From the NCBI RefSeq assembly GCF_028747985.1, contig NZ_CP118108.1:3291501-3355500 (forward strand): a stretch of 64,000 nt of DNA, given 5' to 3'. This stretch comes from Paenibacillus urinalis (GTDB lineage Bacteria; Bacillota; Bacilli; Paenibacillales; Paenibacillaceae). Of this stretch, positions 7,847 to 27,666 are shown in pieces. Below the pieces are notes generated by a model. That model had not been told where the DNA came from and made no database searches. It worked only from the letters and a program-made list of their open reading frames with translations. The position numbers and the translations under genes are program-made. Position 1 is the first letter of the stretch. Each line of letters begins with the position of its first letter.

Positions 7847-7849
7847 GAA

Positions 7850-11313: not shown

Positions 11314-11354
11314 TCCGCTTCACCGTAACGTTGGATAGGGTAAACTAAAACAAA

Positions 11355-11390
11355 AAAGGGTAGAAGGACTTACGCAGCCTTTTACCCTTT
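11355..11390 (-). terminator. Intrinsic terminator after the 11.4-13.0 kb gene pair
   Basis: The stem AAAGGGTAgAAGG / CCTTTTACCCTTT is followed on the minus strand by TTTTTTGTTTT, 18 bases past the stop of the gene ending at 11408. Confidence 0.85.
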
Positions 11391-11407
11391 ATATATTATA
11401 AATGCTC

Positions 11408-12595
11408 TTAAGACTGTTTTGTATGAACTTCAAGTAACTTATACGATACGCTTTCTTTATCTGTACATGTACTAATGACCTTTTTTGTCTCAATCAATGC
11501 ATTTACTTCCATCGGAACCTCAAAAGTGTAACCATTCTGTACTATTGTTTTAATCTGTTCAGATAAATTTCCAGAGTAGTCATTTTCGTCATCACCTTCT
11601 ATGTAGAAAGTGTTCCTTTTCAGATTGATTGCTATTAGCTTTCCTTTTACAGTCATTTGGTGATATGTTTCAGAGTTTTCATTGATAAGTTTAATGGCTG
11701 AATCCAACTGGTCTTTCGATATTGAGTCGGATCTATTTTCTGAATTAGGTGATGCCCATTCAAATTTTAAGCTTCCAGAGGTACTTTGAACAGAATTAAG
11801 AAACTTCTGATACCACATAACCGCTCTTGGATTAATCCCCCTCAAACTCTGCTTTAATGTTTCATTGTTCTTACTTTTAATTAGAAGGTCAGATAGTTGA
11901 TTCATTGCTTCAGTAGCTGGTGTTACATTAAATATATTCGCTGATTTTTTTGACTTTATTCTAATTCCAAATGAAGATTCAAATAAAGATGTAACATTCG
12001 CTGAATTATCCTCTATAACAGCTAAAGGAGGCTTTCTCATATTTGCATCCCATCTTGGATCTAATGAATATAAGGTATATTGGATTGAGGTTAGTGTATC
12101 ACCAAGTTTTTGGCAACCAAGCTCATAAGCTTCCTCTCCACCTTCTATAGCAATATCCAAAATGTCCCTACGGCTTTCAAAAGCTTCTTCCAATGTAGGG
12201 GAAGGCTTTGGCGGAAGTTCTGAGTAGTGAGTATCTGTACTTAAAGGTGCATAGGAATCTTCCTCTGGTAAATATTCATCTGGAATATCATCACTGGATA
12301 GGATTTGGATAATGGGTTTAAATTCTTCTGTTACAGGAAGGTGTACCTCATATAGGTGGTCTTCAGCATTTGTAATTGCATCTCTAATAGAAATCCTACC
12401 ACTTTTAATCTCCTGAACTCTTGATTTGCTTACGGGAATAAACAACCAATGGTCTGATTCCTCTAGTTCATCGACCAAAAAAGCAAGAAATTCAATTGAT
12501 TTATTTTTACATGTAAATATACGAGGTCCATCATAATAGAAAAATACATCCAAAATTTTCAGACATCCTAATGGTGTGTATAGCTCACCATGCAT
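11408..12595 (-). CDS. Unknown protein of defence-island type, possibly DUF6575
   Basis: This 395-residue soluble protein opens with MHGELYTPLGCLKILDVFFYYDGPRIFTCKN, a head I associate from memory with the DUF6575 family. The N-terminal ~100 residues look like one mixed alpha/beta domain, an acidic Pro/Glu linker follows (about 105-135), and the C-terminal half is predicted alpha/beta. No catalytic motif is evident. Its start overlaps the stop of the upstream gene as TAATG, so the two are translationally coupled and likely act together. It lies beside a restriction operon, so a defence or toxin/immunity role is plausible but unproven. Confidence 0.6.
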   Translation of the reverse strand: MHGELYTPLGCLKILDVFFYYDGPRIFTCKNKSIEFLAFLVDELEESDHWLFIPVSKSRVQEIKSGRISIRDAITNAEDHLYEVHLPVTEEFKPIIQILSSDDIPDEYLPEEDSYAPLSTDTHYSELPPKPSPTLEEAFESRRDILDIAIEGGEEAYELGCQKLGDTLTSIQYTLYSLDPRWDANMRKPPLAVIEDNSANVTSLFESSFGIRIKSKKSANIFNVTPATEAMNQLSDLLIKSKNNETLKQSLRGINPRAVMWYQKFLNSVQSTSGSLKFEWASPNSENRSDSISKDQLDSAIKLINENSETYHQMTVKGKLIAINLKRNTFYIEGDDENDYSGNLSEQIKTIVQNGYTFEVPMEVNALIETKKVISTCTDKESVSYKLLEVHTKQS

Positions 12596-13017
12596 TATAT
12601 GTCCTCTCCTATCTTTAATATCTCATTAAAATATGTATGAGGTTCAACACCCATAAATGTCCACCAATTTACATGAGAATATCCAACTGTTTGACTAGGG
12701 TCATGAACGAAGACACCAGTATCTGGTGAAATATGTCCGACCGCTACCTTATTCATTTTCTTCATGCCTATCCCAGAAAAAAATTTGTGTGCAACAGGTA
12801 TGTCATTAGTACTACTCAAAACAGAAAGAGCAAGATTATCACAGGTAGCAGATGCATATTGCTTTCTTCTAACACCAGGTGCTATAAAATCCTTTGCTTT
12901 TATAGAGCTCGAAGGAACTATTCTATATACTTTCATCTCTTCTTTTATCGCTTTATCAATTGGGGGACAACTATCTGGAAAATAATTTGGGAACTCCTTC
13001 AAATCATTCTCTCCCAT
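12595..13017 (-). CDS. Unknown 140-residue protein coupled to the 11408-12595 gene
   Basis: The protein reads VYRIVPSSSIKAKDFIAPGVRRKQ..., then a Cys/Leu-rich centre and GHISPDTGVFVHDP, with an aromatic end VNWWTFMGVEPHTYF. The YR..., D-F and C-terminal aromatic pattern vaguely recalls RES/ADP-ribosyltransferase-like toxins, but I see no definite R-S-E triad. The ribosome binding site AGAGGTGA lies five bases before the ATG. It is the first gene of a two-gene unit whose partner starts at 12595. A toxin-antitoxin or abortive-infection pair is one possibility. Confidence 0.6.
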   Translation of the reverse strand: MGENDLKEFPNYFPDSCPPIDKAIKEEMKVYRIVPSSSIKAKDFIAPGVRRKQYASATCDNLALSVLSSTNDIPVAHKFFSGIGMKKMNKVAVGHISPDTGVFVHDPSQTVGYSHVNWWTFMGVEPHTYFNEILKIGEDI

Positions 13018-13109
13018 TTAAATCACCTCTAAACTGCTCTAATATATCGGAATCATAAGCCTTATTTCGATATAACGTTACTTTTTTCCTGCTTAATAAA
13101 CAAAAAAAT

Positions 13110-13144
13110 CCAGATCACGAGATAAAATGATATCTCGGATCTGG
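13110..13144 (-). terminator. Intrinsic terminator after the XRE regulator gene
   Basis: CCAGATC..GAGATA pairs with TATCTC..GATCTGG, followed on the minus strand by ATTTTTTTG. It lies 12 bases past the stop of the gene ending at 13157. Confidence 0.88.
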
Positions 13145-13156
13145 AATTCGATTACC

Positions 13157-13489
13157 CTAATCTTCTTCATTCAAATAATCTTTTATTTTCTTTTTCACTT
13201 TAGTTCGAAGGTTCTCATGACCATTCTCAATCTTTGATAAGGTTTCTAGACCAATCCCTAGTTTCAGAGCTAGCTCTTTTTGCGTTAGGCCTTCGGCTTT
13301 CCGTTTACAATAAACGTCCATTGCTAATGATGACGGCAGCTCGTAAGCATCGCTGTCATCATCCCAATCTGGTTCCCATTCGCCATTACCTTTATTAAAC
13401 TCCATGTCCAGGTATTCCTCTATACCCACTAGCGCTCGGAGTTCTTCTTCTGTTTCATACATAAAACCATGGCATAAATTGCTTTTCAT
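13157..13489 (-). CDS. XRE-family helix-turn-helix regulator
   Basis: This 110-residue protein has an acidic N-terminal half (GNGEWEPDWDDDSDAYELP) and a C-terminal Cro/CI-type helix-turn-helix, GLTQKELALKLGIGLETLSKIENG, at about residues 67-92. Such proteins act as antitoxins or repressors of restriction or toxin operons. It has an AAAGGTG-type ribosome binding site and its own terminator. It lies directly downstream of the type III restriction operon and upstream of the unknown two-gene unit, so it could control either. Confidence 0.8.
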   Translation of the reverse strand: MKSNLCHGFMYETEEELRALVGIEEYLDMEFNKGNGEWEPDWDDDSDAYELPSSLAMDVYCKRKAEGLTQKELALKLGIGLETLSKIENGHENLRTKVKKKIKDYLNEED

Positions 13490-13598
13490 ATTATCCGCAC
13501 CTTTTAGTCAAATTACAAACAGAGTGTATTGTGTTTATCCCGTCTGTTAATTTGAGTAGAACCATTAGGTACAGATAATGCAAGGGGAAAAGATGGGT

Positions 13599-16586
13599 CT
13601 ATATTCCCATTTTGAATTTTTCATAGCTGTTAGCGAGCTTGTATGTGACCCCGTTCTCCAATGCAGCAAAGTGCTTCCGACCACATGTGATCTTCCCATC
13701 TTCTTTCAATCGAAGATCCTCCTGGTCGGTGCTCCCCTTTGTTTCAACAACGAAGAATAGGGTTTCCACTCCCTCTTTTTCAACCAATACTGCCCAGTCA
13801 GGGTTATAATTGCCCAGTGGTGTATCTATTACAAATGATGAAGGGAGCTTAACAAATAACTTAACGTCCTCATCATTGTTAAGCTTTTCTGCAAATGCTC
13901 GCTCTACATTGGAATCATAGCGGATATAGTTATAGACTGATTTATCATTTGACACTTCAACTGCATTAGCCTTCATATAACCGACAAGCTCCTGATGCTC
14001 GAATAATGATTGCTGATAAAACGCATGGTCACCTATACGCTCATATTTAATACCATCCACAATTAACTTCTTCTTTTCTCTGTTAATGATTTTCATAACA
14101 GCTTCCATGAATGCTTGTGGATTCTTCTCAAAGTCTTTCAAGCGTTTGGAGCCAATTAATATATCAACAAGTGTACGTCTCTTAAGGTTGGTCTGTTCCT
14201 GTAAATAACGCAGAATGTCTGGCAGACGTCGTTTCTCTTCCAGCGCTTCATATACACGCATTGTCTGCCCTTCTCCAGACACACCTGATTGGTCCACTTT
14301 CAATAGGGCATTTTCTCGTTTAATTTTCCTAGCCTTAAATGCATCCAGCTTTTGTATTGCATCTATACATCTGCCCTTAAGTGTATCGGAGTCCAAATCT
14401 ACTGAATAAGTCGTCTTGTATTTTATCTGGTTCCATAATTGATTAAACTCGTCGCTTAGGAGAACCTCTTTATTCAGCTTAATATCCACTTCGTCTTTCT
14501 TATTGAAGATCGGCAGCTTCTTAATGGAATTTCTTATGACCCTTTCAATATCCTGCTTTATTTCCTTAAATTCATATGGAACATCGAAAGTTTCAGCTGC
14601 AATTGCTTCCTTCAGCTTGTTTTCAACCTTTCCTTTTTTATCAAGGAATTTTTCTTTAACAAGGAAGGAATAAACTTTGGCAGAATAGTCATAGCCTATT
14701 TCCTTGGACTCTCCAGTGACCTCATCTGTCAGAGTAATTGTAGAGAAGGATTGTTCTTCAAGGTATCCAAACTTAACACCTGTCTCATCTTCCATTTCCT
14801 TCTGAAGCGATTCAGCAAATTGTTGATACGATTCATTTGCTATTACTGTAAGAACATTAATATTCTCGTCATACTGTCTTTGTCCATCTTGATTTACAGA
14901 TAAGCGCAAGCCACGACCAATTTTTTGCCGCTTAGTGAAAGGGTCCTTGGTTTCAACTAAAGTGCATATTTGGAAGACATTTGGGTTATCCCATCCTTCT
15001 TTAAGGGCAGAGTGGGAAAAGATAAATCGCAACGGCGTCTCAAAGCTTAGTAGCTTTTCTTTTTCTTTCATGATGAGTTCAAATGCTGATTCATCATCTT
15101 TATTCGACCGCAGGCTGCCATCTTTCGCAACTTTACTGTCTTTATAGTTTCCGCTCTTATCCTGTGAAAAGTATCCGTCATGAACCTCTTCAGCACTTTG
15201 GTTCGAAATATACTGGTCTTCTTCAAAGAGCGATCGATATTTTGGTGTCCTAATAAGGGAAACATACTCTTCTTCGAAAATCTTGGCATACTTTCCTTTT
15301 TGCCAAGGCTGTCCTTTTGGATAAACTCGATAGTTTTCTACTTTATCTATAAAGAAAAGGGTAAGTACTTTGATTCCTTGGTGGACAAGCCTTTTTTCCT
15401 TATCTAAATGAGTGCGAATCGCTTCTCTTATTTGGTATCTCTTGAGTAAGCCATCATCGATAGCACCAATCGATTCTTCCAGTTTCAGTACCTTGCCATT
15501 TTCGAATTCAATCATTTCGTTTCCAGGATAACAGTCGATACCTTCTACAATATAACCACGATATAGTTCCCGCTCACCAGATAATAAATATAAGTTGTTT
15601 TTATTGTTAGGATTTATTTCTTTTTTCACTCTGGTGACAGTACCATTTTTCTTTTTCTCATCTATTTCAACAGTGGCCTTATATCCATTTTTATTAGAGA
15701 CACTGATAAGCTTAATATATGGATCATTAAAATCGTCATCTGAATTGACAGATAGTACTTCGATTTTTTTTACAAGCTTCTTCTCATAAGCATCAACGGG
15801 GTCTAGCTTGTACATTAGATTGTATGTGTCCCTATGGGTAGCAGAATACCTCAATTTACAAAGTGGATTTAAAGAGGCAATAGCTTCCTTTGCTTTATCC
15901 GTGTTATCAACACTTTGCGGTTCATCAATAATAACGATAGGGTTTGTTTCTTGAATAAATTGAATGGGTTTTTTCCCGTTCATTGTGTCTCTTTCACGGT
16001 GAATAAGGTTAGCTTTGTTTTCTTTTTCTGGGTCATCAAAGCTTTTCTTAAAGGCATCAATATTAATAATCATTACTTCAATATTTGTGCTTGTTGCATA
16101 TTCACGAACCTGCTCCAGTTTAGATGAATCATATTTAAAGTAGTGACAATGCTGCCCAGGGTACTCGTTTGCAAAATGCTCTTCAGTCATCTGAAACGAT
16201 TTATATACGCCTTCACGAATAGCAACACTAGGCACAACAATGATGAATTTTGAAAAGCCATATCTTTTATTTAATTCAAATATACTTCTGGTATAAACAT
16301 ATGTTTTTCCAGTACCTGTTTCCATTTCAACAGTGAAATTCCAATCTTGAATGCTAGCGCTTTTTTTAAGGTGATTTCTCAGCTGTACCTTTTGTACATT
16401 TTCAAGTACTTCTGCTGCCGATAGCTCCAGCTTGTTTCCAATTCCAAGCTCTGTTATTTCTTGCCCAACAATATCACCCATACTTACAGTAAAGTTAGAG
16501 ACCTTAACCGCTTGACCCTCAAAGATATCAGTGATTGATTGAATGGCATCAAGCTGGTATTGTTGTTCATCAAACTTAATCTTCAT
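13599..16586 (-). CDS. res: Type III restriction enzyme Res subunit (helicase/endonuclease)
   Basis: This 995-residue subunit cleaves DNA after ATP-driven translocation from unmethylated recognition sites, in complex with Mod. The helicase motor shows Walker A METGTGKTYVY (about 88-98), the DEAD-type box IIDEPQ (219-224), motif III YSATH, and motif VI IGRGLRLSVN. A PD-(D/E)xK nuclease lies near the C-terminus (YNPDWAVLV ... VVETKG, last 70 residues). The length fits full-size Res. It starts 15 bases downstream of mod and is the last gene of the four-gene operon from 22455. All key residues are present, so the enzyme should be active. Confidence 0.94.
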   Translation of the reverse strand: MKIKFDEQQYQLDAIQSITDIFEGQAVKVSNFTVSMGDIVGQEITELGIGNKLELSAAEVLENVQKVQLRNHLKKSASIQDWNFTVEMETGTGKTYVYTRSIFELNKRYGFSKFIIVVPSVAIREGVYKSFQMTEEHFANEYPGQHCHYFKYDSSKLEQVREYATSTNIEVMIINIDAFKKSFDDPEKENKANLIHRERDTMNGKKPIQFIQETNPIVIIDEPQSVDNTDKAKEAIASLNPLCKLRYSATHRDTYNLMYKLDPVDAYEKKLVKKIEVLSVNSDDDFNDPYIKLISVSNKNGYKATVEIDEKKKNGTVTRVKKEINPNNKNNLYLLSGERELYRGYIVEGIDCYPGNEMIEFENGKVLKLEESIGAIDDGLLKRYQIREAIRTHLDKEKRLVHQGIKVLTLFFIDKVENYRVYPKGQPWQKGKYAKIFEEEYVSLIRTPKYRSLFEEDQYISNQSAEEVHDGYFSQDKSGNYKDSKVAKDGSLRSNKDDESAFELIMKEKEKLLSFETPLRFIFSHSALKEGWDNPNVFQICTLVETKDPFTKRQKIGRGLRLSVNQDGQRQYDENINVLTVIANESYQQFAESLQKEMEDETGVKFGYLEEQSFSTITLTDEVTGESKEIGYDYSAKVYSFLVKEKFLDKKGKVENKLKEAIAAETFDVPYEFKEIKQDIERVIRNSIKKLPIFNKKDEVDIKLNKEVLLSDEFNQLWNQIKYKTTYSVDLDSDTLKGRCIDAIQKLDAFKARKIKRENALLKVDQSGVSGEGQTMRVYEALEEKRRLPDILRYLQEQTNLKRRTLVDILIGSKRLKDFEKNPQAFMEAVMKIINREKKKLIVDGIKYERIGDHAFYQQSLFEHQELVGYMKANAVEVSNDKSVYNYIRYDSNVERAFAEKLNNDEDVKLFVKLPSSFVIDTPLGNYNPDWAVLVEKEGVETLFFVVETKGSTDQEDLRLKEDGKITCGRKHFAALENGVTYKLANSYEKFKMGI

Positions 16587-16600
16587 ATCGCCATTCCTCC

Positions 16601-18439
16601 TTAAATTACACGGATATCTTCAACACCGTAACGTTTCAATATTTGCTGGGCATTTGTACGAACAGTATCGTTTTCGAATCCCTCATCATAAAAAACAATA
16701 CGTTCTGGTTGTTGTTTAGCCATTTCTTCAATTTGTTCCAAAGTTAAATCACGTTCAAGACAGATTAGCAAATACCCCATACCAACGGAATAAACTGCCT
16801 TCTCAGCAATCGTAGTTTCCTCAATAGGTACTGTTAAATCAATACCATATTTAAGTAATATTTCATAAACAACATCCTCTTGAGTACGGCCCTCTTTAAC
16901 TGGTTCTACAAAGTCCAATAATTCTTTTTCTAGATTCATTGACTCCTGGTCCCAAACCTTCAAGTTGGTTTCATCAAGCTTAAACACCTTAAAACCGATA
17001 TCTATATTTTTTAAGGCATTGTTTTTTTCTTCTATAATTTTTTGACCTGCTCTTTTAATACGCTCCTTACCTATTTCACAGATATTATTATAACCTGATT
17101 TATACGCCTCCGAATCACTTCCACAAGGTTCTGGAAATTGAACCATTATATACCTCCGATTACCTCCATCTTCTGAATTAAGCTTCATGACAGCATGAGC
17201 GGAGCTTGCTGAACCAGCAAAAAAATCTAAATAAAGTCCATCTTTGTCATCATCATTATCGTTAATTATAAATGAAAACAAATACTCGATTAGTTTTACT
17301 GGTTTTGGGAAATCAAAGATTCCTCTTTTTCCGAGCAAATCTGCTACTTCTCGAGTTCCCTCTTGATTAAAAACATCTGCTTTTATGGATAATGGTTTAC
17401 CATTTCTTATTTTCCCATTTTCGTCTTTTAAATATTGTTTAAATCTTACACTGAAACCACTTTTACTTTCATTAATTACAATTTCATTATTTGCATAAGC
17501 TTTTTCGAATTTCTCTTTTGACCATAACCATCTGCTTCCCTTTTTAGGTGAAATTTCCTTACCATTATGTGAAATTGAATACATTAAATTACTTCTTTCC
17601 CCTTTACTACTTGTTGCTAATGGTTGGGTAATATAACCACCACGTTGAGGATATTTTTCGTCTTTACTTTTATATGCTTCAATTTGTTCTTCACTTAATG
17701 GAGACTCAAGGTTTTCAATTGGGCGTTTACTATAAACTAAAATATATTCATGAATATTAGCAAAGCCTTTTGTTCCTCCTCCTGCCCCGTATCTTTTTTT
17801 CCAGATTATATTTTCTACAAAGTTCTCTTCACCAAAAATTTCATCACATATTGCTTTCAGATTTTTCATTTCATTAGCATCAATACTAATTAGTATTAAT
17901 CCATCGTCTTTTAATAGATTTTTTGCAATCTTTAACCTAGGGTACATCATATTTAACCAATCCGTATGGAATCTACCATTTGTTTCAGGATTTGATTTCA
18001 TATTTTCAGAAATTACTTCTTTATAATTTTTTAGATTATCTCGAAAATCATCATTATAAACAAAATCATTTCCAGTGTTATAAGGCGGGTCTATATAGAT
18101 AATTTTTACTTTGTTACGATAAGAGCTTTGAAGTATTCGAAGAACTTCAAGGTTATCACCTTCAATAAACAGGTTTTGAGTTGAATCCCAATTAACACTC
18201 TCTTCTTTACATGGAAGTAGTGTTCCTGTTGTTTGCTTTTGAGCAAGTTGAATCGCTTCTGTTTTCCCATTCCAAGAAAACTCGTAGCGTTCTTTTTCTT
18301 TTTCTACATGCTCACCAAGAGCAATACGTAACTTATCAATATCAATCTTATTTTCTGTCAGTATTTCAGGGAATAGCTCTTTTAACTTCTCAATATTATC
18401 TTGTACTACATTGAATGTTTTTCCTTCTAATTTTTGCAA
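16601..18439 (-). CDS. mod: Type III restriction Mod subunit, N6-adenine DNA methyltransferase
   Basis: This 612-residue protein recognises the target site and methylates adenine with S-adenosylmethionine, protecting self DNA. The catalytic motif DPPYNTG (about 117-123) precedes the SAM-binding motif LYLDFFAGSASSAHA (about 405-419). This beta-class order is typical of type III Mod. The region between them and the C-terminal part carry target recognition. The start is TTG at 18439 with GGGAG nine bases upstream, and the ORF begins right at the stop of the DUF4391-like gene, so translation is coupled. The target sequence cannot be read from the protein. Confidence 0.94.
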   Translation of the reverse strand: MQKLEGKTFNVVQDNIEKLKELFPEILTENKIDIDKLRIALGEHVEKEKERYEFSWNGKTEAIQLAQKQTTGTLLPCKEESVNWDSTQNLFIEGDNLEVLRILQSSYRNKVKIIYIDPPYNTGNDFVYNDDFRDNLKNYKEVISENMKSNPETNGRFHTDWLNMMYPRLKIAKNLLKDDGLILISIDANEMKNLKAICDEIFGEENFVENIIWKKRYGAGGGTKGFANIHEYILVYSKRPIENLESPLSEEQIEAYKSKDEKYPQRGGYITQPLATSSKGERSNLMYSISHNGKEISPKKGSRWLWSKEKFEKAYANNEIVINESKSGFSVRFKQYLKDENGKIRNGKPLSIKADVFNQEGTREVADLLGKRGIFDFPKPVKLIEYLFSFIINDNDDDKDGLYLDFFAGSASSAHAVMKLNSEDGGNRRYIMVQFPEPCGSDSEAYKSGYNNICEIGKERIKRAGQKIIEEKNNALKNIDIGFKVFKLDETNLKVWDQESMNLEKELLDFVEPVKEGRTQEDVVYEILLKYGIDLTVPIEETTIAEKAVYSVGMGYLLICLERDLTLEQIEEMAKQQPERIVFYDEGFENDTVRTNAQQILKRYGVEDIRVI

Positions 18440-19204
18440 TTAACACAACTCCCTTATTTGTTGAATTTGAATGTTGATTTGCTGTTCATGCCGCTTTATC
18501 TTCATGTGCAAATCCATCTTTTTACCAAAGTCAACTTGGCCTTTCTGCTCAAGCTGCAATTGTTCGATACCCTTACGATGTTTCTGAACATTTCTTAATA
18601 TGTTGACCACTTCTTCTCGCTTTTCTTTACTGGTAGGTATTGTTCCTACTAACTGAATTACTTCTTCGCATTTTATCCATTGTTGAATGTCCTCGTATAT
18701 GCTATATAGGTTTTCAAAAGATAAATTTGTAACGACCAATGAGTTCAGTAATTTCGAGTATCCAATATCAGGTTCCTTGGGATTAAACCGTTGAGTAATG
18801 GTAGGTTGTTCGACAACAACTTTGGTCTTGTCAGTTTTATTTAGCCTTTTGTGACTGGTACTCAAAAGAATCTGATCTTCTGATGAATTCATTATTAATA
18901 CGGCTGGATTAGGGATAGTCTTATGAATAGCACCAATAATCCTATTTATATTTTTGTCCGTTCGAAGCTCAACGTATATCCATACTACTTCTGCATAATT
19001 GAATTCATCATCTTGGTAGATGGGGATATTTGTACTCTGCTGATTCATAATACTTAACAAATAAATCCCCTCTATATCGGAAGTAAACATTTCCTTTTCC
19101 GTTGTAGAAAGATCGGTTTGTGTAAAAAAGGCTTTCTTAGGTATCTTACGATTTAAAACAGTACGGGGAGGAAACTCCAATCGATTAATCAACCATTCCC
19201 TCAT
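18440..19204 (-). CDS. DUF4391-like accessory protein of the type III restriction operon
   Basis: This 254-residue protein starts MREWLINRLEFPPRTVLNRKIPKKAFF and ends in a charged coiled-coil-like region (about 200-250, KMDLHMKIKRHEQQINIQIQQI). It matches the DUF4391 proteins that I recall lying between SNF2-type helicases and type III Mod/Res genes in defence islands. No catalytic motif is seen, so a structural or assembly role linking helicase and methyltransferase is a guess. It is packed eight bases after the helicase and directly against mod. Confidence 0.8.
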   Translation of the reverse strand: MREWLINRLEFPPRTVLNRKIPKKAFFTQTDLSTTEKEMFTSDIEGIYLLSIMNQQSTNIPIYQDDEFNYAEVVWIYVELRTDKNINRIIGAIHKTIPNPAVLIMNSSEDQILLSTSHKRLNKTDKTKVVVEQPTITQRFNPKEPDIGYSKLLNSLVVTNLSFENLYSIYEDIQQWIKCEEVIQLVGTIPTSKEKREEVVNILRNVQKHRKGIEQLQLEQKGQVDFGKKMDLHMKIKRHEQQINIQIQQIRELC

Positions 19205-19212
19205 TCCATCAC

Positions 19213-22200
19213 CTACTTTATCACTAAAAATGATATTAATTCAAAGTCATCCGAAGTTGTTGCTGTATCCTGTAAAAGACTAGAATTCCCAAGACTGAAT
19301 AACGATTCCATTCCTTGCTCTTCAACAATACCGAGAACAAATTCGACCGCTTTGTCTAGTAGATACTTGTAAGAAGACATGTCGTTCATATCCTCTGTTT
19401 CTTGATTGAACTGATGAATTAACTCATTGAACACGTCTGATTGACCATTAGCAACTTTACGGAAGAGATCCAGTATCTGCTTTGTCTTTAAATGTCCTAG
19501 TGAGACCTCTCCATCCATATTCATATACACAAGATAATATGGATACAGTGCGCTTGTTTCTTTTACTTGTGCTGCTGCATTTCGTTGTTTGATACAGAAT
19601 ATCACCCCTGGTTCAGTATCAGAAGATGGAGCCAACTGAAGCGAGGTAACTGCGTGTAATCCTAGGGGAGCAGTCTCAATTTTCTTCTTATTGGCTTCCA
19701 TATAATCAAGTAGATCCATTTTAAAGTCGTTCAGAGTCAAATCAGTGATAGAGATTCCGCCAGAGATATCCTCTAAATCAACCACTTCTTCTTGTAGCTG
19801 TTTCAATTGCTTTTTACGATATTCCAAATCATTCATTTGCTTCTTTTCATCATATTCAATTACGTTCTCTTCACCTGTTGCTGAAATATCAAGAAGCACC
19901 ATTCTGCCGCTTACACGTGCTTCTAAATTAATATACTCATCAAGATCCATATTCGGCCAGAAGTTTACCAGTTGAATAACATCATTCTTTGAGCCTAAAC
20001 GATCGATTCGACCGAACCGTTGGATAATTCGGACTGGGTTCCAATGAATGTCATAATTGATTAAAAAATCACAATCTTGGAGGTTCTGACCTTCCGAAAT
20101 GCAGTCAGTTGCAATCAATATGTCGATCTCTTCACGTATCTTTGAATCAATTTTATTTCTTTCCTTCGATACGGGTGAAAAGTTGGTCAAAATGGAGTTT
20201 AGATCTTTTTGGATACCCTTTAATGTAGTCTGGTTGCCTCCAGAACCTGTGACAAGCGCCGAGTTAACACCATGCTTTTTGGCCACCCATTGTGATAACT
20301 CTTTATACAAATAACTTGCTGTGTCTGCAAAAGCTGTAAAAATGATGATTTTCTTATTTTCTCCATTAATGGGTTGAAGGAGCTTTTGGTCAATCATGGA
20401 TTTAAGCTTATTCAACTTGGCATCACGTGGAGCTTGAACTTTTGCTGATTCAATAAGTAGCTGCTCAAGTTTTTCCTTATCATCATGCAAATCTTGCTTC
20501 CACTTAATGCGGTCGATATCTTGAAGGAGTACTTTTACTTTCGATCCTATCAGCATGTTTTCAACATCATCATCGTCAATATCGATTTCATTAATATTAA
20601 TATCGGCATTGGAGTATTGTTGGATGTTATCAAGCTTTAATAACAGGTCATCAATTTTTGTCAAAAGAGCTGCTACTGTCATACCAAATGAATGTATAGA
20701 GCTTTCCATCCGTTTAAGCAAGTTAACCCTCATTAAATGGACAAGACTGCGTTCACGGTCAATCTGCTTAAATACTGAACCACCCTTTACCTTCATATCA
20801 TATTTTCTGCTGTATTCCTCTTGCTTTTCGGGCATTACATATTTTAATGGAGAATACGCACTTAAATTCAGCCTGTTAATTAACTTATTGACTTCCTTTA
20901 TTTCAGGGAACTCATTGCTCTCATCAATATCAGCATGTACATTTCTTGGTTTCAACCGTTCTGGAAATTTCCCAATCTCCGACATATTATAGTATTTTTC
21001 AATATGTTTTCTTGAACGAGCAATAGTCACTGCATCGAGCAATTTGAAGTAGTCAAAGTTTAACATTTCAAGTAGGGTGTCGGACTTGCGCTCCTCATCA
21101 CCTAACTTGAGCCATTTATTGAATGAAAGCTGTGCTTTTCTTAATGTTTGTTCGATGCTTTCAATACCTGCAGATTCCAGTGCTTCATCATTACCTTCCG
21201 TAATAAAAGCAACTTGGTTTTTCAAATCATTCATTTTGTTATTTACTGGCGTCGCTGATAGCATTAAGACCTTTGTCTTAACACCTGCTTTAATGATTTG
21301 GTTCATCAATCTCGAATAACGAGTTTCCCTGTCATTTCTAGCCTGGTTATTCCTGAAATTATGTGACTCATCAATAACAACTAAGTCGTAGTTACTCCAG
21401 TTCACAGTAGACAAATTAATATCCCCTGACAAACCGCCTGTACGGCTCAAATCGGTATGATTTAACACATCGTAGTTGAAGCGATCAGTAGAGAGGACAT
21501 TTCTCTTATCATTTTGAGTGTAAATCAGCCAGTTTTCTCTTAATTTTTTTGGGCACAAAACTAGTACTCTGTCATTTCTCAACTCGTAATACTTAATAAC
21601 TGCAAGGGCTTCGAATGTCTTCCCCAAACCTACACTATCTGCAATGATACAACCGTTATGCTTTTCCAATTTATCAATAGCTCCGAGTACACCATCTTTT
21701 TGGAATTTATAAAGCTTATTCCATATCGTGGTGTCTTTAAAGCCTGTTTTTGATTTTACAATCGCATCTTCATCGAATTCTTCCAGGTAGTCACTGAAAA
21801 TATTATATAGCGTGACATAGTAAAGAAATTCTGGAGAATGATTTTCATAAATTGCTGCGATTCTTCCCAAAACTTCCTCTTGTACCTCTTCAACAATAGC
21901 ATCGTTCTTCCAAACATCATTGAACCACTGGATATATTGTTTTGTTAATAGAGGTTCATCCATTAGTGAATTCATATGAAGACTAGGCGAGTATGTATAG
22001 CCTAATCCGCTGCTAGTAAAATCGGAGCTCCCTTGAATAGCCACTGATGAACCATCTTTGTTTTCAATATGGAACAGGCGATTCTGTGTTAATGGTGACG
22101 TCAAAGACTTCATCTTTACTTTTGAACTTATCCAGTCAGCACATTCTTTAGCGATTTTCGCCTGTGTAAGTTCATTCCGCATCTTAATTTCGAGTTCTGA

Positions 22201-22455
22201 ACCAGATAACCTTTTCTCTCGACCTGACTTATCAATGTCTGTAGTACCTTTTGTATGTTTTTCTGAAGTAAAGGTAGGATCGATAAATAAAAACCGTACC
22301 TCTTCCACCTTCATTAATTCCTTCTTTAAAGCCTCGAACGCATATATCGTAAAGTAGGATGACATGATCGCTACCTTGGCATCTTTTTTAAAATATGGTT
22401 TCAATGCATCTCCTACAATGCCAGACCTTTTGTTATCTAACATTTTCCCTATCAT
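19213..22455 (-). CDS. PLD-SNF2 helicase fusion in the type III restriction operon
   Basis: This 1080-residue protein has two parts. The N-terminal ~200 residues hold one phospholipase D-type half-site (H129 x K133 ... GSSDFT 142-147), as in PLD nucleases. The rest is a SNF2/RapA-like superfamily 2 ATPase: Walker A ADSVGLGKTFEAL, Walker B VIDESHNF, motif III LSATPVNN, and C-terminal motifs LIATDCISEGQN and QRFGRIDRLGS. The family acts on double-stranded DNA or nucleoprotein. It is the first gene of the operon helicase / DUF4391 / Mod / Res and probably adds DNA remodelling or a second nuclease to the restriction system. Whether one PLD half-site is active (by dimerisation) is unknown. Confidence 0.9.
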   Translation of the reverse strand: MIGKMLDNKRSGIVGDALKPYFKKDAKVAIMSSYFTIYAFEALKKELMKVEEVRFLFIDPTFTSEKHTKGTTDIDKSGREKRLSGSELEIKMRNELTQAKIAKECADWISSKVKMKSLTSPLTQNRLFHIENKDGSSVAIQGSSDFTSSGLGYTYSPSLHMNSLMDEPLLTKQYIQWFNDVWKNDAIVEEVQEEVLGRIAAIYENHSPEFLYYVTLYNIFSDYLEEFDEDAIVKSKTGFKDTTIWNKLYKFQKDGVLGAIDKLEKHNGCIIADSVGLGKTFEALAVIKYYELRNDRVLVLCPKKLRENWLIYTQNDKRNVLSTDRFNYDVLNHTDLSRTGGLSGDINLSTVNWSNYDLVVIDESHNFRNNQARNDRETRYSRLMNQIIKAGVKTKVLMLSATPVNNKMNDLKNQVAFITEGNDEALESAGIESIEQTLRKAQLSFNKWLKLGDEERKSDTLLEMLNFDYFKLLDAVTIARSRKHIEKYYNMSEIGKFPERLKPRNVHADIDESNEFPEIKEVNKLINRLNLSAYSPLKYVMPEKQEEYSRKYDMKVKGGSVFKQIDRERSLVHLMRVNLLKRMESSIHSFGMTVAALLTKIDDLLLKLDNIQQYSNADININEIDIDDDDVENMLIGSKVKVLLQDIDRIKWKQDLHDDKEKLEQLLIESAKVQAPRDAKLNKLKSMIDQKLLQPINGENKKIIIFTAFADTASYLYKELSQWVAKKHGVNSALVTGSGGNQTTLKGIQKDLNSILTNFSPVSKERNKIDSKIREEIDILIATDCISEGQNLQDCDFLINYDIHWNPVRIIQRFGRIDRLGSKNDVIQLVNFWPNMDLDEYINLEARVSGRMVLLDISATGEENVIEYDEKKQMNDLEYRKKQLKQLQEEVVDLEDISGGISITDLTLNDFKMDLLDYMEANKKKIETAPLGLHAVTSLQLAPSSDTEPGVIFCIKQRNAAAQVKETSALYPYYLVYMNMDGEVSLGHLKTKQILDLFRKVANGQSDVFNELIHQFNQETEDMNDMSSYKYLLDKAVEFVLGIVEEQGMESLFSLGNSSLLQDTATTSDDFELISFLVIK

Positions 22456-22751
22456 TCCTACACCCCCAAAAAGACAAAAATATAACTATTCTACTACTTT
22501 TATTCTACAAGACTTTCTATCATCGTTAAATCAATTTTACAAAAATAGTAATTGCACATTCTACCAGCTTGCTATATGTAAAAATATGTAAATGTTATAC
22601 AGTGGAAAATTTTGAAATTTTTTGACCCCAGGTAATGTGTTATTTGAAAGGTTTGTACTTTGTTCGGTGCCCACCCGTTCCTTTTAAAAGGAGGCGAAGT
22701 TGCTGTTGGCATTAACAATGCTATTTATATCAATGAAAGGAGGTGAGTCAA
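22456..22751. other. Divergent intergenic region between defence operon and plasmid-like genes
   Basis: This AT-rich stretch should contain the promoter of the leftward restriction operon and of the rightward genes from 22752. It shows long A/T tracts around 22540-22625 and a strong AAAGGAGG at 22737-22744 for the next gene. I see no further gene and no clear terminator. Confidence 0.5.
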
Positions 22752-22982
22752 ATGGAAAAGCAGCATAAAAATACGGTAAAGTCTTTAATCGCTAAGAATG
22801 GTTACTGGACTGGCTTTCTTGTAGCAAACAAAGTGAATCCTGTTCATGTTAAGGGGTGTTGGCATTTAGGCTTTAGAGTCACGGTATCTAGCATAGAAGA
22901 ACTTGATAAAGCCATTAATCGGTTTGCTTACTACAACTGTAATCGTGAATTAGGAAATCGTGTGTCCTTCTATAAAAAGTAG
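22752..22982 (+). CDS. Unknown 76-residue protein of the mobile segment
   Basis: It begins MEKQHKNTVKSLIAKNGYWTGFLVANKVNPVHVKGCW and ends in ELGNRVSFYKK. It is basic and predicted alpha/beta with no signal or membrane segment. The start is set by AAAGGAGGTGAGTCAA before ATG 22752. The codons from 22743 lie inside the ribosome binding site. It is followed after 47 bases by a recombination-type gene in the same direction, so the two likely share a transcript. I do not recognise a family. Confidence 0.6.
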   Translation: MEKQHKNTVKSLIAKNGYWTGFLVANKVNPVHVKGCWHLGFRVTVSSIEELDKAINRFAYYNCNRELGNRVSFYKK

Positions 22983-23029
22983 GATGATTTTTAGTAAGCG
23001 AAAATTATATGAAGGAGCGAACTTACAAA

Positions 23030-23758
23030 ATGCTTGAAAAAAATGGTGGCAATCGTAACGTGATACCCATTAGGGAAAGAAATGTAAAAGTGAGTCTAGT
23101 ACCAAGTCTAGCTATCTCATTAGCTGAAGCCAAAGAAAGAATAGACATGTTGCAGCAATTTGTAAAAGAAATGATGAAAGAAGGATTGGATTACGGAATT
23201 ATTGAAGGCTTTCGGAAGCCGACTCTTTTTAAACCTGGGGCAGAGAAGCTTTGTGACATCTTCGGTTTTTCCAAACATGTGAATATTATTAACCGTATTG
23301 AAAACTGGGAAAAAGGAATTTTTGCTTATGAAGTGAAGGTGACTCTTGTCAGCAAACAAACAGGTTTTATGGAAGCAGAAGGGATCGGGACTTGCAACAA
23401 TAAAGAACAGTCCTTTATAGACCAGGACCCTTTTAGCGTTGTTAATACACTTCTTAAGATGGCTAAGAAAAGAGCATTAATTGATGCTGTTCTTTCAGCT
23501 ACAAGAGCTAGTGGTCTATTCACACAGGATATCGAGGACTTACCTAAGGATATCCCGCAAAACAAAGGGGGTGAGGCACCAGCCACAGATAAGCAACTAC
23601 AAATGATATTCGGAACGGTATCAGAGTTGAATATGCGTCCAGAAGTCGCAAAAGAAATGATGCAAATGATGTTTCAAGTAGATCACAGTACCAAGCTCAC
23701 AAAACAACAAGCATCCTCTTTCATACAAGACTTGTTACTATTGAAAATCAAGCCTTAA
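23030..23758 (+). CDS. Putative DNA-repair/recombination protein of mobile-element type
   Basis: This 242-residue protein contains the segment EGLDYGIIEGFRKPTLFKPGAEKLCDIFGF, then DPFSVVNTLLKMAKKRALIDAVLSATRASGLFTQD. I associate this pair of motifs with phage and plasmid proteins related to single-strand-annealing/recombination functions, though no exact family is certain. The C-terminal ~60 residues (TDKQLQMIFGTVSEL...KLTKQQASSFIQDLL) resemble a small helical domain found at the end of such proteins. The ATG at 23030 has GAAGGAG 12 bases upstream. It lies two genes before the RadC-like protein. Confidence 0.5.
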   Translation: MLEKNGGNRNVIPIRERNVKVSLVPSLAISLAEAKERIDMLQQFVKEMMKEGLDYGIIEGFRKPTLFKPGAEKLCDIFGFSKHVNIINRIENWEKGIFAYEVKVTLVSKQTGFMEAEGIGTCNNKEQSFIDQDPFSVVNTLLKMAKKRALIDAVLSATRASGLFTQDIEDLPKDIPQNKGGEAPATDKQLQMIFGTVSELNMRPEVAKEMMQMMFQVDHSTKLTKQQASSFIQDLLLLKIKP

Positions 23759-23804
23759 AGGAGGTGAGAATGTATGGAATCAGTTAATACCTTGAATCAA
23801 TGAA

Positions 23805-23843
23805 GCTCTATGAGTGCAGCACGCATTCAGAGGGCTTTTTTTT
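23805..23843 (+). terminator. Intrinsic terminator, preceded by a nine-codon mini-ORF
   Basis: The stem GCTCTATGAGTGC / GCATTCAGAGGGC is followed by TTTTTTTT. A tiny ORF (ATG 23774 to TGA 23803) with a strong AAAGGAGGTGAG site lies directly before it. It is probably a remnant or a leader rather than a functional protein. Confidence 0.85.
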
Positions 23844-23990
23844 TGCACAAAAAAGATGAGCCGCTAGAACGGACTCATCAGTAATAATATCGACTAACTA
23901 TATCATACAGAAAAAATCAATATCAATCAATTGGAGAGGCGTTCATTCGTCTCTCCTTTTTTCATTTCAATTATTAGGAGGAAAAATATA

Positions 23991-24599
23991 ATGACTACTC
24001 AATTCGATAAATTTACATTCAAACTATTGCTGGCTACCACAATCCGTGAAAAGGATGACAGCTACATCGTTAGTGAAATCTTTACCCGCTTCCCTTCAAT
24101 TCAGGAGTTATTGGATGTTACTGAGGAAGAGCTTCTATCTATTAAAGGTATTGGAAGAATCAAAGCTCAGCAAATTATCGCTGCATTAAGGCTGGCGAGA
24201 TTAAATCCAACTACGGCAGAGGAAAGATATGCTATCCGTTCACCACAGGATGCATACGATTACCTTAAAGACATGCAGTATCTGACTCGTGAGGAATTCG
24301 TTTGCTTAGGACTGAACACCAAGAATGAAATATTGTTTAGACAAACTGTCTTCACTGGCTCTCTTAACGCATCAATCGTCCATCCAAGAGAAACCTTCCT
24401 GCCATTAATAAAAAGAAGTTGCGCTAGTTGTATTGTGGCTCATAACCATCCATCAGGACAGCCAGACCCTTCAAGGGAAGACATTGATGTTACGAAACGC
24501 CTTGCAGAGGTCGGAAAAGTAGTCGGCATTGAAGTGCTTGATCACATTATCATTGGACATGAAAAGTATGTCAGCTTAAAGGAAAAAGGATATTTGTAA
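23991..24599 (+). CDS. radC: RadC family JAMM/MPN domain protein
   Basis: This 202-residue protein has an N-terminal helix-hairpin-helix DNA-binding part (LLSIKGIGRIKAQQIIAALRLA) and a C-terminal JAMM metalloprotease-like domain with the HNHPSGQPDPSREDI metal motif, as in RadC (UPF0758). RadC proteins are frequent on plasmids, ICEs and phages and are thought to aid DNA repair or recombination, although their reaction is unsettled. The ATG at 23991 has AGGAGG in front. Codons back to 23931 lack a ribosome binding site. The length is about that of the usual ~220 residues. The context marks it as an element-borne paralogue rather than the chromosomal radC next to maf/mreB. Confidence 0.88.
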   Translation: MTTQFDKFTFKLLLATTIREKDDSYIVSEIFTRFPSIQELLDVTEEELLSIKGIGRIKAQQIIAALRLARLNPTTAEERYAIRSPQDAYDYLKDMQYLTREEFVCLGLNTKNEILFRQTVFTGSLNASIVHPRETFLPLIKRSCASCIVAHNHPSGQPDPSREDIDVTKRLAEVGKVVGIEVLDHIIIGHEKYVSLKEKGYL

Positions 24600-24609
24600 G
24601 AATTATTGT

Positions 24610-24640
24610 GGGGGCTATCTATATCCAGTTAGCCCTCTTT
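24610..24640 (+). terminator. Terminator after the RadC-like gene
   Basis: GGGGGCTA pairs with TAGCCCTC around a 12-base loop, then TTT. It is ten bases past the stop at 24599. Confidence 0.75.
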
Positions 24641-25365
24641 AAATAATATGTCAGCCAAGAATATCTGATTTCTATTAAAATTACACCACCCTTCATAAAA
24701 TCTCCTTCGAAAAGTTGCATAAACCGCTATGTGACAGGACTTTCTAATCCAAGATCACTTTATTACAGAATGTCTTTCATGGTACATCTAAGGTGGGGCT
24801 TGCTACTGTTCTAGTGAAAAAGTGCCGATTAAACCTAATAAAACGATAAAATAATGCCGATTAAAAATCATCTATAAACCCTGCTATAACAATGAATCTA
24901 AGGTTAAAATAGCCTTTTACCCTCTTAGTATTTATATCTATTCATGCATGCTGTACTTAAACTGAATCATCTTGAGCAGAGAGCATCCTTTTGTTAGCTA
25001 ATTCAAATTAGAAAAACCCACCACCAAAAAGTAACTGCGTGGTAGAGACAATAGGCATGAGCGTAAAAGCGAAATGCCACTTACCAAACGTAGTGAAGGT
25101 AATTCAGATATTACATGCGTGATCCCACTAGAGAACTATACATGCGTGATGGTGAATGGGAGTGGATACGACAATGAATCCATCCAGCCTTATAAAATGA
25201 AAGTTACTTCGTTCTAGCCAAGGAGCTCTTCTTTTAAAGATGCCGTTTGCCCACATAGAGTGTGGAGGACTGGTCTATGCCCCGCAGTTGTTTATCCATT
25301 AAGGCAGCAACCATATCCTCCCGCTAATTGTGGAGGATTTCTAACTCATTGTGCAGTTGTTTAGT
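24641..25365. other. 725-base noncoding region with direct repeats and nested hairpins
   Basis: No supported gene lies here. I see TGCCGATTAAA twice (24823-24833, 24855-24865), ACATGCGTGAT twice (25113-25123, 25140-25150) and GCAGTTGTTTA twice (25284-25294, 25353-25363). The second GCAGTTGTTTA copy overlaps the edge of the Rep-like gene's 3' flank. There are also hairpins: TGGTA/TACCA (25040-25086) enclosing GGCAT/ATGCC (25054-25078), CCACA/TGTGG (25251-25265) and ATCCTCC/GGAGGAT (25315-25338). Iteron-like repeats next to a Rep-like gene suggest an origin of replication or a structured RNA. This is inference only. Confidence 0.5.
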
Positions 25366-26310
25366 TTATTTAGTGACCTTCTTTGAATGGGCTTTCTTAG
25401 CAATATCACATCTTTCAATTAATAGGTTCATCTTTGCTTTAATGTCTCTTTCTGAGTCATATTTCATTTGTCGGTGTAGATTAGCGAAATATCCCATCAC
25501 TTTTGAATAGACATCTCCTTCTTCATTTCCTCTGGAGACAAGCTGTGGATGGATGTAGAAAATCTTCTTTGTTAATGGGCTCCCTGCTGGTCCGTCTTCA
25601 TATAGTATGCCTGCATTTCCTAGTGCCTTAATATAGGCTTTCGTTGTCTGTTCACTGTCACCCATTTGTTGAGCTATTTCTTTAACCCTGAGTGGTACCA
25701 ATTTATCAGGATTCTTTTCGTATGGGTCCTGAGCTATTATGAGCGTGTTAAAGTCAATGAAAAGACTTAACTTCAATAGAAATCCCAACTGTTTAGTATC
25801 CAATTTATCTTGGATATAGCGCCCAGTTTTTTTGTAGAGCCGTGTAAATGGAGCTTTGTTTCCTTTCGTGTTACCTATTCTTACGAACATTGGATTAACA
25901 ATGTACTCTTGATCTTTCTTAGAACCACTCTTAATGATTAACCCAAGTTCCTCTAATCGATTAAGTACCTTCCGAAGTTGACGGTCCCCAAGACCAGTAA
26001 TGGTTCTTAGCTCTTTCAGTTTCATTGATTTTCCATCTTTAATTAAGACACCTTCTTTGTCCCATTGAAGATAGAGCACCAATTTATAGAATGTCCCCAC
26101 TTCTGCATGATTCATTTGAGAATACAGGTCGTGAACAGTATGAAACTCTATAACATGTTCATATCTTTTCTTGAACTTTTTCTGAAATCCTGCCATTTGG
26201 TTTTTATTTCGAACATCATATTTGCTACCAATTTCTTTACGGGCTTGTTCAGCTGTAAGAGCTCCATCTACTGCCTGCTCTAATATTTTTGTAAGTTGTG
26301 ACTTACTCAT
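25366..26310 (-). CDS. Winged-helix replication-initiator-like protein
   Basis: This 314-residue basic soluble protein has two helical winged-helix-like segments, seen at KLKELRTITGLGDRQLRKVLNRLEELGLIIK (about 105-135) and LRVKEIAQQMGDSEQTTKAYIKALGNAGILYED (about 210-245). This two-wing layout recalls plasmid RepA/RepB-type initiators and related regulators of ICEs. The ATG at 26310 has AAAGGAGG in front. Codons to 26346 include that site. It is divergent from the XRE gene at 26463 and reads toward a repeat-rich noncoding region. It could equally be a transcription factor, as no catalytic motif is seen. Confidence 0.6.
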   Translation of the reverse strand: MSKSQLTKILEQAVDGALTAEQARKEIGSKYDVRNKNQMAGFQKKFKKRYEHVIEFHTVHDLYSQMNHAEVGTFYKLVLYLQWDKEGVLIKDGKSMKLKELRTITGLGDRQLRKVLNRLEELGLIIKSGSKKDQEYIVNPMFVRIGNTKGNKAPFTRLYKKTGRYIQDKLDTKQLGFLLKLSLFIDFNTLIIAQDPYEKNPDKLVPLRVKEIAQQMGDSEQTTKAYIKALGNAGILYEDGPAGSPLTKKIFYIHPQLVSRGNEEGDVYSKVMGYFANLHRQMKYDSERDIKAKMNLLIERCDIAKKAHSKKVTK

Positions 26311-26462
26311 AAGATTTCCTCCTTTCCTCGACAACACTAAGTGCATGCCTTTATGTAAAAGATATCAAGTTGTATCCGTTTAAGCAAGTATTATGCACAT
26401 TACTTGCAATAACGCATTAACCGTGATAATCTTGAGACAAATACAAAAAAGGAAGTGATTTC

Positions 26463-27035
26463 ATGACAGATTTAAAGATGTACCGAGTGGAAGAAAATGA
26501 TTTAATGTATCTCAAAAACGAAAACTTAGGTGGGCGTTTAAAGTGGATAAGGGAGAAAGCAAATGAATATAACAGTCCTTTATTCACGGTTTATCGACTT
26601 GCAGAAAGCATTTCAGTCGCTCAATCAACAATATCCCGTATTGAGTCGGGTACTCAACCAAGAGTCGATCTACTCGAAAAGATTGCTGCACAATTAGGAG
26701 TCTCTATCGCTGTGTTTACTGATTCCTATTACGAAGATGGTGGAAAACCTTTTACCATTTGTGAAAAGAAAGACAGTAATCTACAAGGTTCAACAAAGAG
26801 ACCCTTTAGCTTGCTCGACACTCAATATGAGGCAACTCTTTCATTATCAATAAAAACACATCAGGGGCTGGACTATAAAAACATTGAAGAAACAGTTTTT
26901 CTATCACCAATTGAACACGAGGAGTTCGCTAATGAAGTGGATGCACTTATTTTAAAGGTAAGAAATAGACGAAAACACTGGAAGATCAAACAGGCAGCTT
27001 ATGAAAAGCTAGTAAATGGAGTGGAGGAATTCTAA
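26463..27035 (+). CDS. XRE-family helix-turn-helix regulator of the mobile segment
   Basis: In this 190-residue protein the Cro/CI-type helix-turn-helix lies at about 38-77 (TVYRLAESISVAQSTISRIESGTQPRVDLLEKIAAQLGVS). The C-terminal ~110 residues are unassigned and could be sensory or oligomerising. It is transcribed divergently from the Rep-like gene over a 150-base gap and likely represses one or both. The stop overlaps the next start as TAATG. Confidence 0.82.
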   Translation: MTDLKMYRVEENDLMYLKNENLGGRLKWIREKANEYNSPLFTVYRLAESISVAQSTISRIESGTQPRVDLLEKIAAQLGVSIAVFTDSYYEDGGKPFTICEKKDSNLQGSTKRPFSLLDTQYEATLSLSIKTHQGLDYKNIEETVFLSPIEHEEFANEVDALILKVRNRRKHWKIKQAAYEKLVNGVEEF

Positions 27036-27196: not shown

Positions 27197-27257
27197 CTTT
27201 CATCTTCAACATTTGATAAGCAGCATTTTATTTAATAATTATTGAGGAGGATATTTT

Positions 27258-27554: not shown

Positions 27555-27613
27555 ATTCTACGAAAAAAACAGGTAGTAGCAGAGTAGATGAACTGTGCGT
27601 CAACCTATCTAAA

Positions 27614-27637: not shown

Positions 27638-27666
27638 CATTTATAAATACGAGAGGAATGATTAAA

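Follow-up and report, generated by a model that had tools for sequence, protein, structure and literature searches.

A type III restriction operon with PLD-like SNF2 and DUF4391 genes in Paenibacillus urinalis and its relatives in bacteria and archaea

In the usual account, a type III restriction enzyme consists of two proteins, Mod and Res. The 64,000-nucleotide stretch of Paenibacillus urinalis DNA analysed here (contig NZ_CP118108.1, positions 3,291,501 to 3,355,500, hereafter the window) carries an operon in which the type III mod and res genes are preceded by genes for a PLD-like SNF2 protein and a DUF4391 protein. The same four-gene order was found to recur in bacteria and archaea, and the encoded proteins diverge together, in agreement with the preliminary description of this DNA, which had proposed an extended restriction system. 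From these comparisons, the SNF2 and DUF4391 proteins may be regarded as an accessory motor-adaptor pair of the type III system, a reading to which we give about an even chance. The DUF4391 four-gene form is widespread and under-described; the gene families themselves are ordinary, and an extra helicase beside mod and res is already in print.

Linkage and joint divergence of the four genes

Relatives of the SNF2 protein were collected by searching species genomes with 18 aligned SNF2 proteins, and the loci of the best 80 of at least 583 relatives, a sample that leans to close relatives, were analysed. A gene was counted as downstream when it lay on the same strand, after SNF2 and within the locus. 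Gene labels were assigned with profiles rebuilt on the same 80 loci, and DUF4391 was then confirmed with Pfam (PF14335 in 56 of 56 aligned DUF4391 proteins at E ≤ 0.001). The best 80 relatives belong to Bacillota, Pseudomonadota, Bacteroidota, Campylobacterota, Planctomycetota, Acidobacteriota, Chloroflexota, other groups and methanogenic archaea. DUF4391 was found downstream of SNF2 in all 72 loci with at least 800 nt of downstream sequence, Mod in all 61 loci with at least 4 kb, and the complete set of DUF4391, Mod and Res in 48 of 49 loci with at least 9.9 kb. This linkage gives DUF4391 a firm context.

The genes are also closely spaced in this sample, with median spacings of 0, 12 and 14 nt for the successive junctions. 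Spacings of 50 nt or less were observed for SNF2-DUF4391 in 72/77, for DUF4391-Mod in 44/67 and for Mod-Res in 40/60 cases. Insertions of more than 400 nt occurred at 19/67 DUF4391-Mod and 18/60 Mod-Res junctions but at only 3/77 SNF2-DUF4391 junctions (3 of the 5 in which this gap exceeded 50 nt), indicating that SNF2 and DUF4391 form a tight pair. Among the 54 inserted open reading frames (ORFs), 20 were scanned; 14 of these matched Pfam at E ≤ 1e-4, one of which, SMC_N, scored below its cut-off. At the DUF4391-Mod and Mod-Res junctions, the inserted families include RhuM, Bro-N, AAA_13, AAA-ATPase with PDDEXK_9, YhcG/DUF1016, Schlafen AlbA_2, PLDc_2 and AIG2; further inserts are annotated as ATP-dependent endonuclease and DUF2130. 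Such cargo resembles that often found inside type I loci.

The same arrangement was observed in other collections. In the viral collection, SNF2 was detected at 150 bits or more in 43 of 47 loci; among the loci with room, DUF4391 was present in 28/31, Mod in 27/28 and all four genes in 18/22, these counts rising to 30/31 for DUF4391 and 20/22 for all four when two DUF4391 genes that overlap SNF2 by more than 100 nt, and were missed by the script, are added by hand. SNF2 relatives at E ≤ 1e-100 were detected in 101 of 72,556 plasmid records, and the SNF2-DUF4391 DNA of a plasmid copy matched 68 of 5426 Escherichia coli genomes, with coverage of at least 80% in 10. An E. coli plasmid, NZ_CP101235, carries a copy of the four-gene operon. 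The DUF4391 copies of E. coli bear this name in RefSeq. In one E. coli locus (strain 0H24, L182), mod is interrupted by IS30 and an ATP-binding-domain protein follows DUF4391, while SNF2, DUF4391 and res are free of pseudogene flags. One of the phage records (Erysipelothrix, L177) holds the four-gene operon adjoining the macrolide-resistance genes mef(A)/msr(D) and several site-specific recombinases.

Among 398 genomes drawn from the phylum of the window, PF14335 was found in 34 and the SNF2 model (E ≤ 1e-60) in 33. An SNF2 match lies within 3 kb of 30 of the 37 DUF4391 matches. Of the seven others, that of G101 stands at the start of a contig, those of G288 and G211 are on short contigs that hold SNF2 pieces, G217 has two in a single broken locus, and those of G306 and G356 are remnants. 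Conversely, DUF4391 lies within 3 kb of 30 of the 36 SNF2-model matches. Of the six others, three score low (212-220 bits) and one (G378) stands at the end of a contig; G370 and G311 are real exceptions. Incomplete or rearranged loci were also noted: Res is missing and Mod partial in L222, no Res was detected within 9.97 kb in L076, SNF2 and DUF4391 are broken in L111 and L125, and only DUF4391 remnants are left in L130 and L131. In L203, of the viral collection, an SNF2 gene with a replaced tail stands directly before res, and both DUF4391 and mod are missing; judged by eye, this C-terminal tail (gene at 5858-9073) resembles the C-terminal HNH segment of GmrSD.

Joint divergence was analysed for 80 loci with all four genes at full length, equivalent to 78 distinct sets; the shuffles used for this comparison leave shared ancestry in. 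Mean pairwise identity was 0.51 for SNF2, 0.25 for DUF4391 and 0.46 for Res, and within Mod 0.54 for the N-terminal part, 0.25 for the recognition part and 0.46 for the C-terminal part. The distances of SNF2 and Res (Spearman correlation, 0.86), of DUF4391 and Res (0.74) and of DUF4391 and SNF2 (0.69) are correlated with each other, while the recognition part of Mod showed correlations of 0.06 or less with SNF2, DUF4391 and Res. The partial correlation of SNF2 with Res given DUF4391 was 0.72. DUF4391 retained a partial correlation of 0.40 with Res given SNF2 and of 0.01 with the target-recognition domain given SNF2, indicating that DUF4391 follows the machine and not the target site. As judged from these sequence distances, in which shared ancestry remains, the four genes behave as one machine with a swapped targeting part.

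On these grounds, the view of an ordinary type III system with SNF2 and DUF4391 as hitch-hiking neighbours of no shared function is already disfavoured, and we rate it very unlikely. Mod-Res can indeed exist without the two genes, but the nearly invariable four-gene order in bacteria and archaea, the short median spacings and the joint divergence are not those expected of chance neighbours.

Components of the operon

The four genes stand on the same strand with gaps of 8 nt (SNF2/DUF4391), 0 nt (DUF4391/Mod) and 14 nt (Mod/Res) by ORF coordinates, so that the order and positions given in the preliminary description were right; its term "fused" was not, since the genes are adjacent but separate ORFs (Table 1). 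It had also described the catalytic motifs of Mod and Res as intact, and this was confirmed. Mod carries DPPY (residue 117) before and DFFAGS (residue 405, the FxG motif) after the target-recognition domain, the order of a beta-class type III methyltransferase. Res carries TGTGKT (90), DEPQ (221), GRGLR (557), NPDW (928) and ETK (948), as in an SF2 helicase joined to a PD-(D/E)xK endonuclease. The family assignments agree: Mod matches Pfam N6_N4_Mtase (3e-31) and the PADLOC model MTase_III (6e-218), and Res matches RE_endonuc (1.5e-38) and ResIII in Pfam and REase_III (E 0) in PADLOC. NCBIfam adds weak or below-cut-off matches for operon proteins. Both proteins are homologous by sequence to those of EcoP15I (Mod, 7e-64; Res, 5.8e-58). 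The likeness to the EcoP15I type (Mod2Res) thus includes homologous Mod and Res, tandem mod-res, a beta-class Mod and a Res of SF2 plus PD-(D/E)xK type, whereas the two upstream genes are extra.

Table 1. Features of the operon and its surroundings in the window (positions from the first nucleotide of the window)
Feature	Position	Strand	Description
PLD-like SNF2 (1080 aa)	22455-19213	minus	PLD-like N-terminal domain and SNF2/RapA-type SF2 motor; HKD nuclease site degenerate
DUF4391 protein (254 aa)	19204-18440	minus	alpha/beta core and C-terminal helical hairpin; without confident fold match
Mod (612 aa)	18439-16601	minus	beta-class amino-methyltransferase, type III; TTG start immediately after DUF4391 stop
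Res (995 aa)	16586-13599	minus	type III helicase and PD-(D/E)xK endonuclease
mod segment including target-recognition domain	17009-17858	minus	unalignable to the G001 copy, although flanks align
Mobile island carrying the operon (18 kb)	11322-29352		TTC (3 bp) at both ends: 11319-11321 and 29350-29352
Large serine recombinase, probable island integrase	27658-29364	plus	Resolvase, Recombinase, Zn_ribbon_recom; last codons past the right end of the island
HipB/XRE-like helix-turn-helix gene	13157-13489	minus	directly after res
RadC-like JAB protein, island gene	23931-24599	plus	protein scan

The SNF2 protein matches Helicase_C and SNF2-rel_dom in Pfam and carries the motor motifs in order (DSVGLGKT at 273, DESH at 362, SATP at 400 and QRFGRIDRLG at 812). 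In PADLOC it matches PDLC01075 (C3a139, "HKD+Snf2") nearly over the full length (2.7e-143, 477.5 bits, residues 23-1079 on 22-947 of 948); C3a139 is a model of a single protein.

The preliminary description had noted a PLD half-site and suggested that the helicase adds a translocase or nuclease step. In the window protein, however, the motif HxK(x4)D is absent and HIE stands at residues 129-131; at the HxK columns of 40 SNF2 relatives, the histidine is present in 16 and the lysine in only 2. By these residues, neither present here nor conserved in the family, the PLD half is a dead nuclease, and a PLD nuclease role was rejected. It is therefore extremely improbable that the SNF2 protein itself is a second nuclease acting through this half, even though a PLD-like fold can be inferred from the PADLOC name and PLDc_2, undetected in the window protein at E ≤ 0.01, matches 5 of the 40 relatives. 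SauUSI (PDB 7clg) also aligns with the SNF2 structure model from residue 1, although loosely, with a root-mean-square deviation of 26 Å; the whole model is of moderate quality (predicted local distance difference test score, 74), and its structural matches were used for architecture only. SauUSI is a type IV, ATP-dependent restriction enzyme made of one protein that includes the nuclease; the window protein lacks the HKD site and is associated with Mod and Res.

A likeness to the SNF2 subunit of DISARM had been noted in the same description. The motor is shared, and DrmD too is an SNF2 helicase linked to a methyltransferase, but the window protein scores far below the NCBI equivalog cut-offs for DrmD (NF038317, 171 against 610 bits; NF038318, 128 against 950 bits), and membership in DISARM was rejected. 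No DrmA, DrmB or DrmC was detected among the island proteins scanned (Pfam, with PADLOC for 7 proteins), which represent part of the window ORFs.

The DUF4391 protein is assigned to PF14335 (3.3e-46, 158.5 bits against a cut-off of 29.9), and it has no PADLOC model match at E ≤ 0.001. Its identity as a known fold was rejected, since its structure model gave no Foldseek match in PDB or BFVD at E ≤ 0.001; its profile gave chance-level matches only against solved structures, and a second structural look covered mainly the helical hairpin at residues 191-254. A role as specificity partner is likewise unsupported, its divergence being independent of the recognition domain of Mod (partial correlations, 0.01 and -0.01). 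The family also appears in a table of a study on Saccharibacteria (PMC7784981).

Possible roles of the pair and other SNF2 motors beside type III systems

As an accessory motor-adaptor pair, the two proteins could act as follows. Mod and Res would have their canonical roles, Mod methylating a single strand of its asymmetric site and Res cleaving unmodified DNA; DUF4391 would link the motor with Mod-Res, and the motor would translocate on, or remodel, the same DNA. By clearing DNA-bound proteins, or by moving or releasing the Mod-Res complex, the motor might allow restriction to work where sliding alone fails; it might also extend the reach of the enzyme. Such a translocase step is compatible with the intact SNF2 motifs, and the motor matches those of SNF2 proteins and RapA. 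The loose SauUSI alignment likewise speaks for this reading.

A stronger version of this reading may also be considered, in which SNF2 and DUF4391 are the third and fourth subunits of a separate and ancient type III subtype. For cleavage, type III enzymes need a pair of unmodified sites in inverse orientation; the 36 EcoP15I sites of T7 all point one way, and the phage thereby escapes this enzyme (PMC12707154). The motor would convert the sliding enzyme into a translocating one that cuts T7-like phages with sites in one orientation, and DUF4391 would couple motor and nuclease and protect host DNA. We consider this version possible but rather unlikely. Any action that relaxes the orientation rule must be restrained, because newly replicated host DNA would be at risk.

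Several observations weigh against the motor-adaptor reading. The first is the danger just named, since a relaxed rule of two inverted sites would endanger freshly replicated host DNA. Second, Mod-Res is also found alone in related genomes: 14 of 20 fetched regions, mostly around unlinked Mods, hold Mod and Res without such SNF2 or DUF4391 genes, two of them at contig ends. Third, on a tree of 99 Res rows (a quick LG+G4 tree with long branches), the seven judgeable rows without the pair need five changes, the contig-end rows L155 and L170 being left out of this count; the pair was thus lost, gained or exchanged several times, in a direction not given by the tree, and is probably not needed for basic restriction. 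Fourth, the SNF2 gene of G370 is intact and followed by a different gene, and the 1.46 kb left on its short contig lack DUF4391; a 1293-aa protein of G311 matches C3a139 with 581 bits, above the window protein, without DUF4391. Fifth, no fold match of DUF4391 points to an adaptor. Finally, in the possibly comparable case of Eco86II, no peptides of the extra helicase were found in the partly purified enzyme and the helicase is unneeded for methylation (PMC8259958).

In favour of the pair as an accessory of Mod-Res, the dependence looks one-sided: Mod-Res exists without the pair, and the pair is rarely seen without Mod-Res. SNF2 or DUF4391 lies within 12 kb of 33 of the 48 Mods of the window family in the 398 genomes (matches of at least 500 bits, some incomplete), and neither was found within this distance of the other 15, two of which are hardly judgeable (G290 at the first base of its contig, G206 with 2.3 kb upstream) and one of which (G343) has a DrmD-like SNF2 instead. 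The SNF2 loci among the best 80, by contrast, all have Mod where the downstream sequence suffices. The preliminary description had named, as the case that would count against it, homologous clusters in which Mod and Res are enough and the extra genes dispensable or unlinked. The occurrence of Mod-Res without the pair (15 of 48 Mods) goes half-way in this direction: basic restriction can probably do without the pair, which is nevertheless not unlinked.

Alternatively, the pair could have a clearing or safety role: in the manner of RapA or Mot1, it would strip stalled Mod-Res or other proteins from DNA and limit self-damage rather than take part in the attack. RapA is the best sequence match of the SNF2 motor among solved structures (2.4e-12), and Mot1 is among the structural matches of the SNF2 model, as are numerous other SNF2 remodellers. 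Modification by type III enzymes is confined to one strand, and self-protection rests on site orientation (PMC12707154), which leaves room for a safety factor. However, SNF2 motors look alike, so such matches say little on the substrate, and the factor is not essential for safety, given that Mod-Res occurs without the pair. This alternative is conceivable, although we hold it to be rather improbable.

A separate defence module has also to be considered, such as a guard or abortive-infection unit that watches Mod-Res and is genetically bound to it but mechanistically independent. The published precedent for an embedded guard is PrrC inside a type I locus (PMC12707154), and other likely defence genes (RhuM, AAA_13, AAA-ATPase with PDDEXK_9, YhcG/DUF1016, Schlafen AlbA_2 and PLDc_2) are inserted in the operon. 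SNF2 and DUF4391 are, however, far more constant than these inserts, the divergence of SNF2 remains tied to that of Res after DUF4391 is accounted for, and neither protein has a recognised active effector domain. We judge a guard module decidedly unlikely.

A role for the motor itself, as in the motor-adaptor reading, is favoured by the finding that at least two SNF2 lineages adjoin type III Mod-Res. In E. coli, a DrmD-like SNF2 gene (PDLC02619, 660-736 bits in L195, L248, L249 and L250) is located 5' of type III mod-res; the SNF2 of L247 was assigned to this group by DNA-level relatedness and not by the PDLC02619 scan. Between SNF2 and mod-res are GmrSD (L195), AAA plus S8 peptidase (L248), Abi plus AIPR (L249) or nothing (L247, L250), and three Mod families (PDLC03634, PDLC03636 and PDLC03646) are represented. 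Among 5426 E. coli genomes, 251 match the SNF2 DNA of L195, with coverage of at least 80% in 2, and the gene order was seen in L195 and four of the matches. Within the phylum of the window, a DrmD-like SNF2 precedes Mod in L163, with a 1279-aa ORF between. The motor of L250 is 31-32% identical to the window SNF2 in two core segments. A gene annotated mads1 (MADS regulator MAD1) was noted in E. coli upstream of both a PLD-SNF2/DUF4391 operon (L181, 9172-9336) and a DrmD-like SNF2 operon (L249, 5554-5754), and MAD1 is possibly a shared regulator of SNF2-bearing restriction operons.

Mod and Res alone are described as the typical type III case, and Murray et al. (2021) described an additional gene for a helicase-like ATPase, located 5' of mod, in two N4-methylcytosine type III systems, Eco86II and BspHIV, and its linkage to mod-res in more than 500 genomes (PMC8259958). 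These systems resemble the window operon in having an extra SF2 helicase-like gene linked to mod-res, the helicases being compared here by description only; they differ in that the third gene stands immediately 5' of mod, and the term "DUF" is absent from the text of the paper (PMC8259958). By analogy with L247 and L250, in which SNF2 is directly before mod-res, the helicase of Murray et al. may belong to the DrmD-like lineage. A Cronobacter island is listed with a type III system, an SNF2 helicase and RadC, listed without a link between them (PMC12757443). No published description of a four-gene type III operon with SNF2 and DUF4391 was found in a literature search that left subscription journals, REBASE and preprint servers outside. 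Should the pair act together with Mod-Res, a subunit may have been overlooked where such systems were assayed with two genes. The copies in E. coli make the question testable in a laboratory host.

The mobile island and neighbouring genes

The operon is carried by a mobile island, for which a sister genome (G001) provides an empty site. The flanks of the island are 100% identical to G001 in the aligned pieces (C31:315457-317732, 317810-318247 and 318272-322792), apart from a 76-base length difference inside the left flank, near window position 10886. The window departs from this identity at 11321 and regains it at 29350, with TTC common to both junctions. On another contig, G001 carries a related island of 90-97% identity over 13163-29355, except for the recognition region of mod; the alignment blocks are 13163-17008 at 89.7% and 17859-28926 at 97.1%, and the mod gene of this copy is split into two ORFs. 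The empty site, together with the related island with a replaced recognition region, indicates that the operon is mobile and that its specificity was recently exchanged.

Homologues of the helix-turn-helix gene follow res in six near relatives (L005, L006, L009, L011, L120 and L135, of which L009 and L120 are apparently from the same genome). At 11408-13017, the island also holds two coupled minus-strand genes, one for a DUF6575 protein that weakly matches PD-T4-10_B (2.3e-14) and PDC-M63B and the other for a 140-aa partner without family. In L133 and L048, homologues of both adjoin the same four-gene operon, and L053 has a homologue of the partner alone there. As judged from this co-occurrence, they may be a second travelling defence pair.

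Elsewhere in the window are an 856-aa ORF with no Pfam match at 1e-10 (39954-42524), an exporter of the major facilitator superfamily (51502-52749) and nonribosomal peptide synthetase genes (53798-63987), which include a 2943-aa protein with three Condensation and three AMP-binding stretches and a 431-aa Condensation protein.

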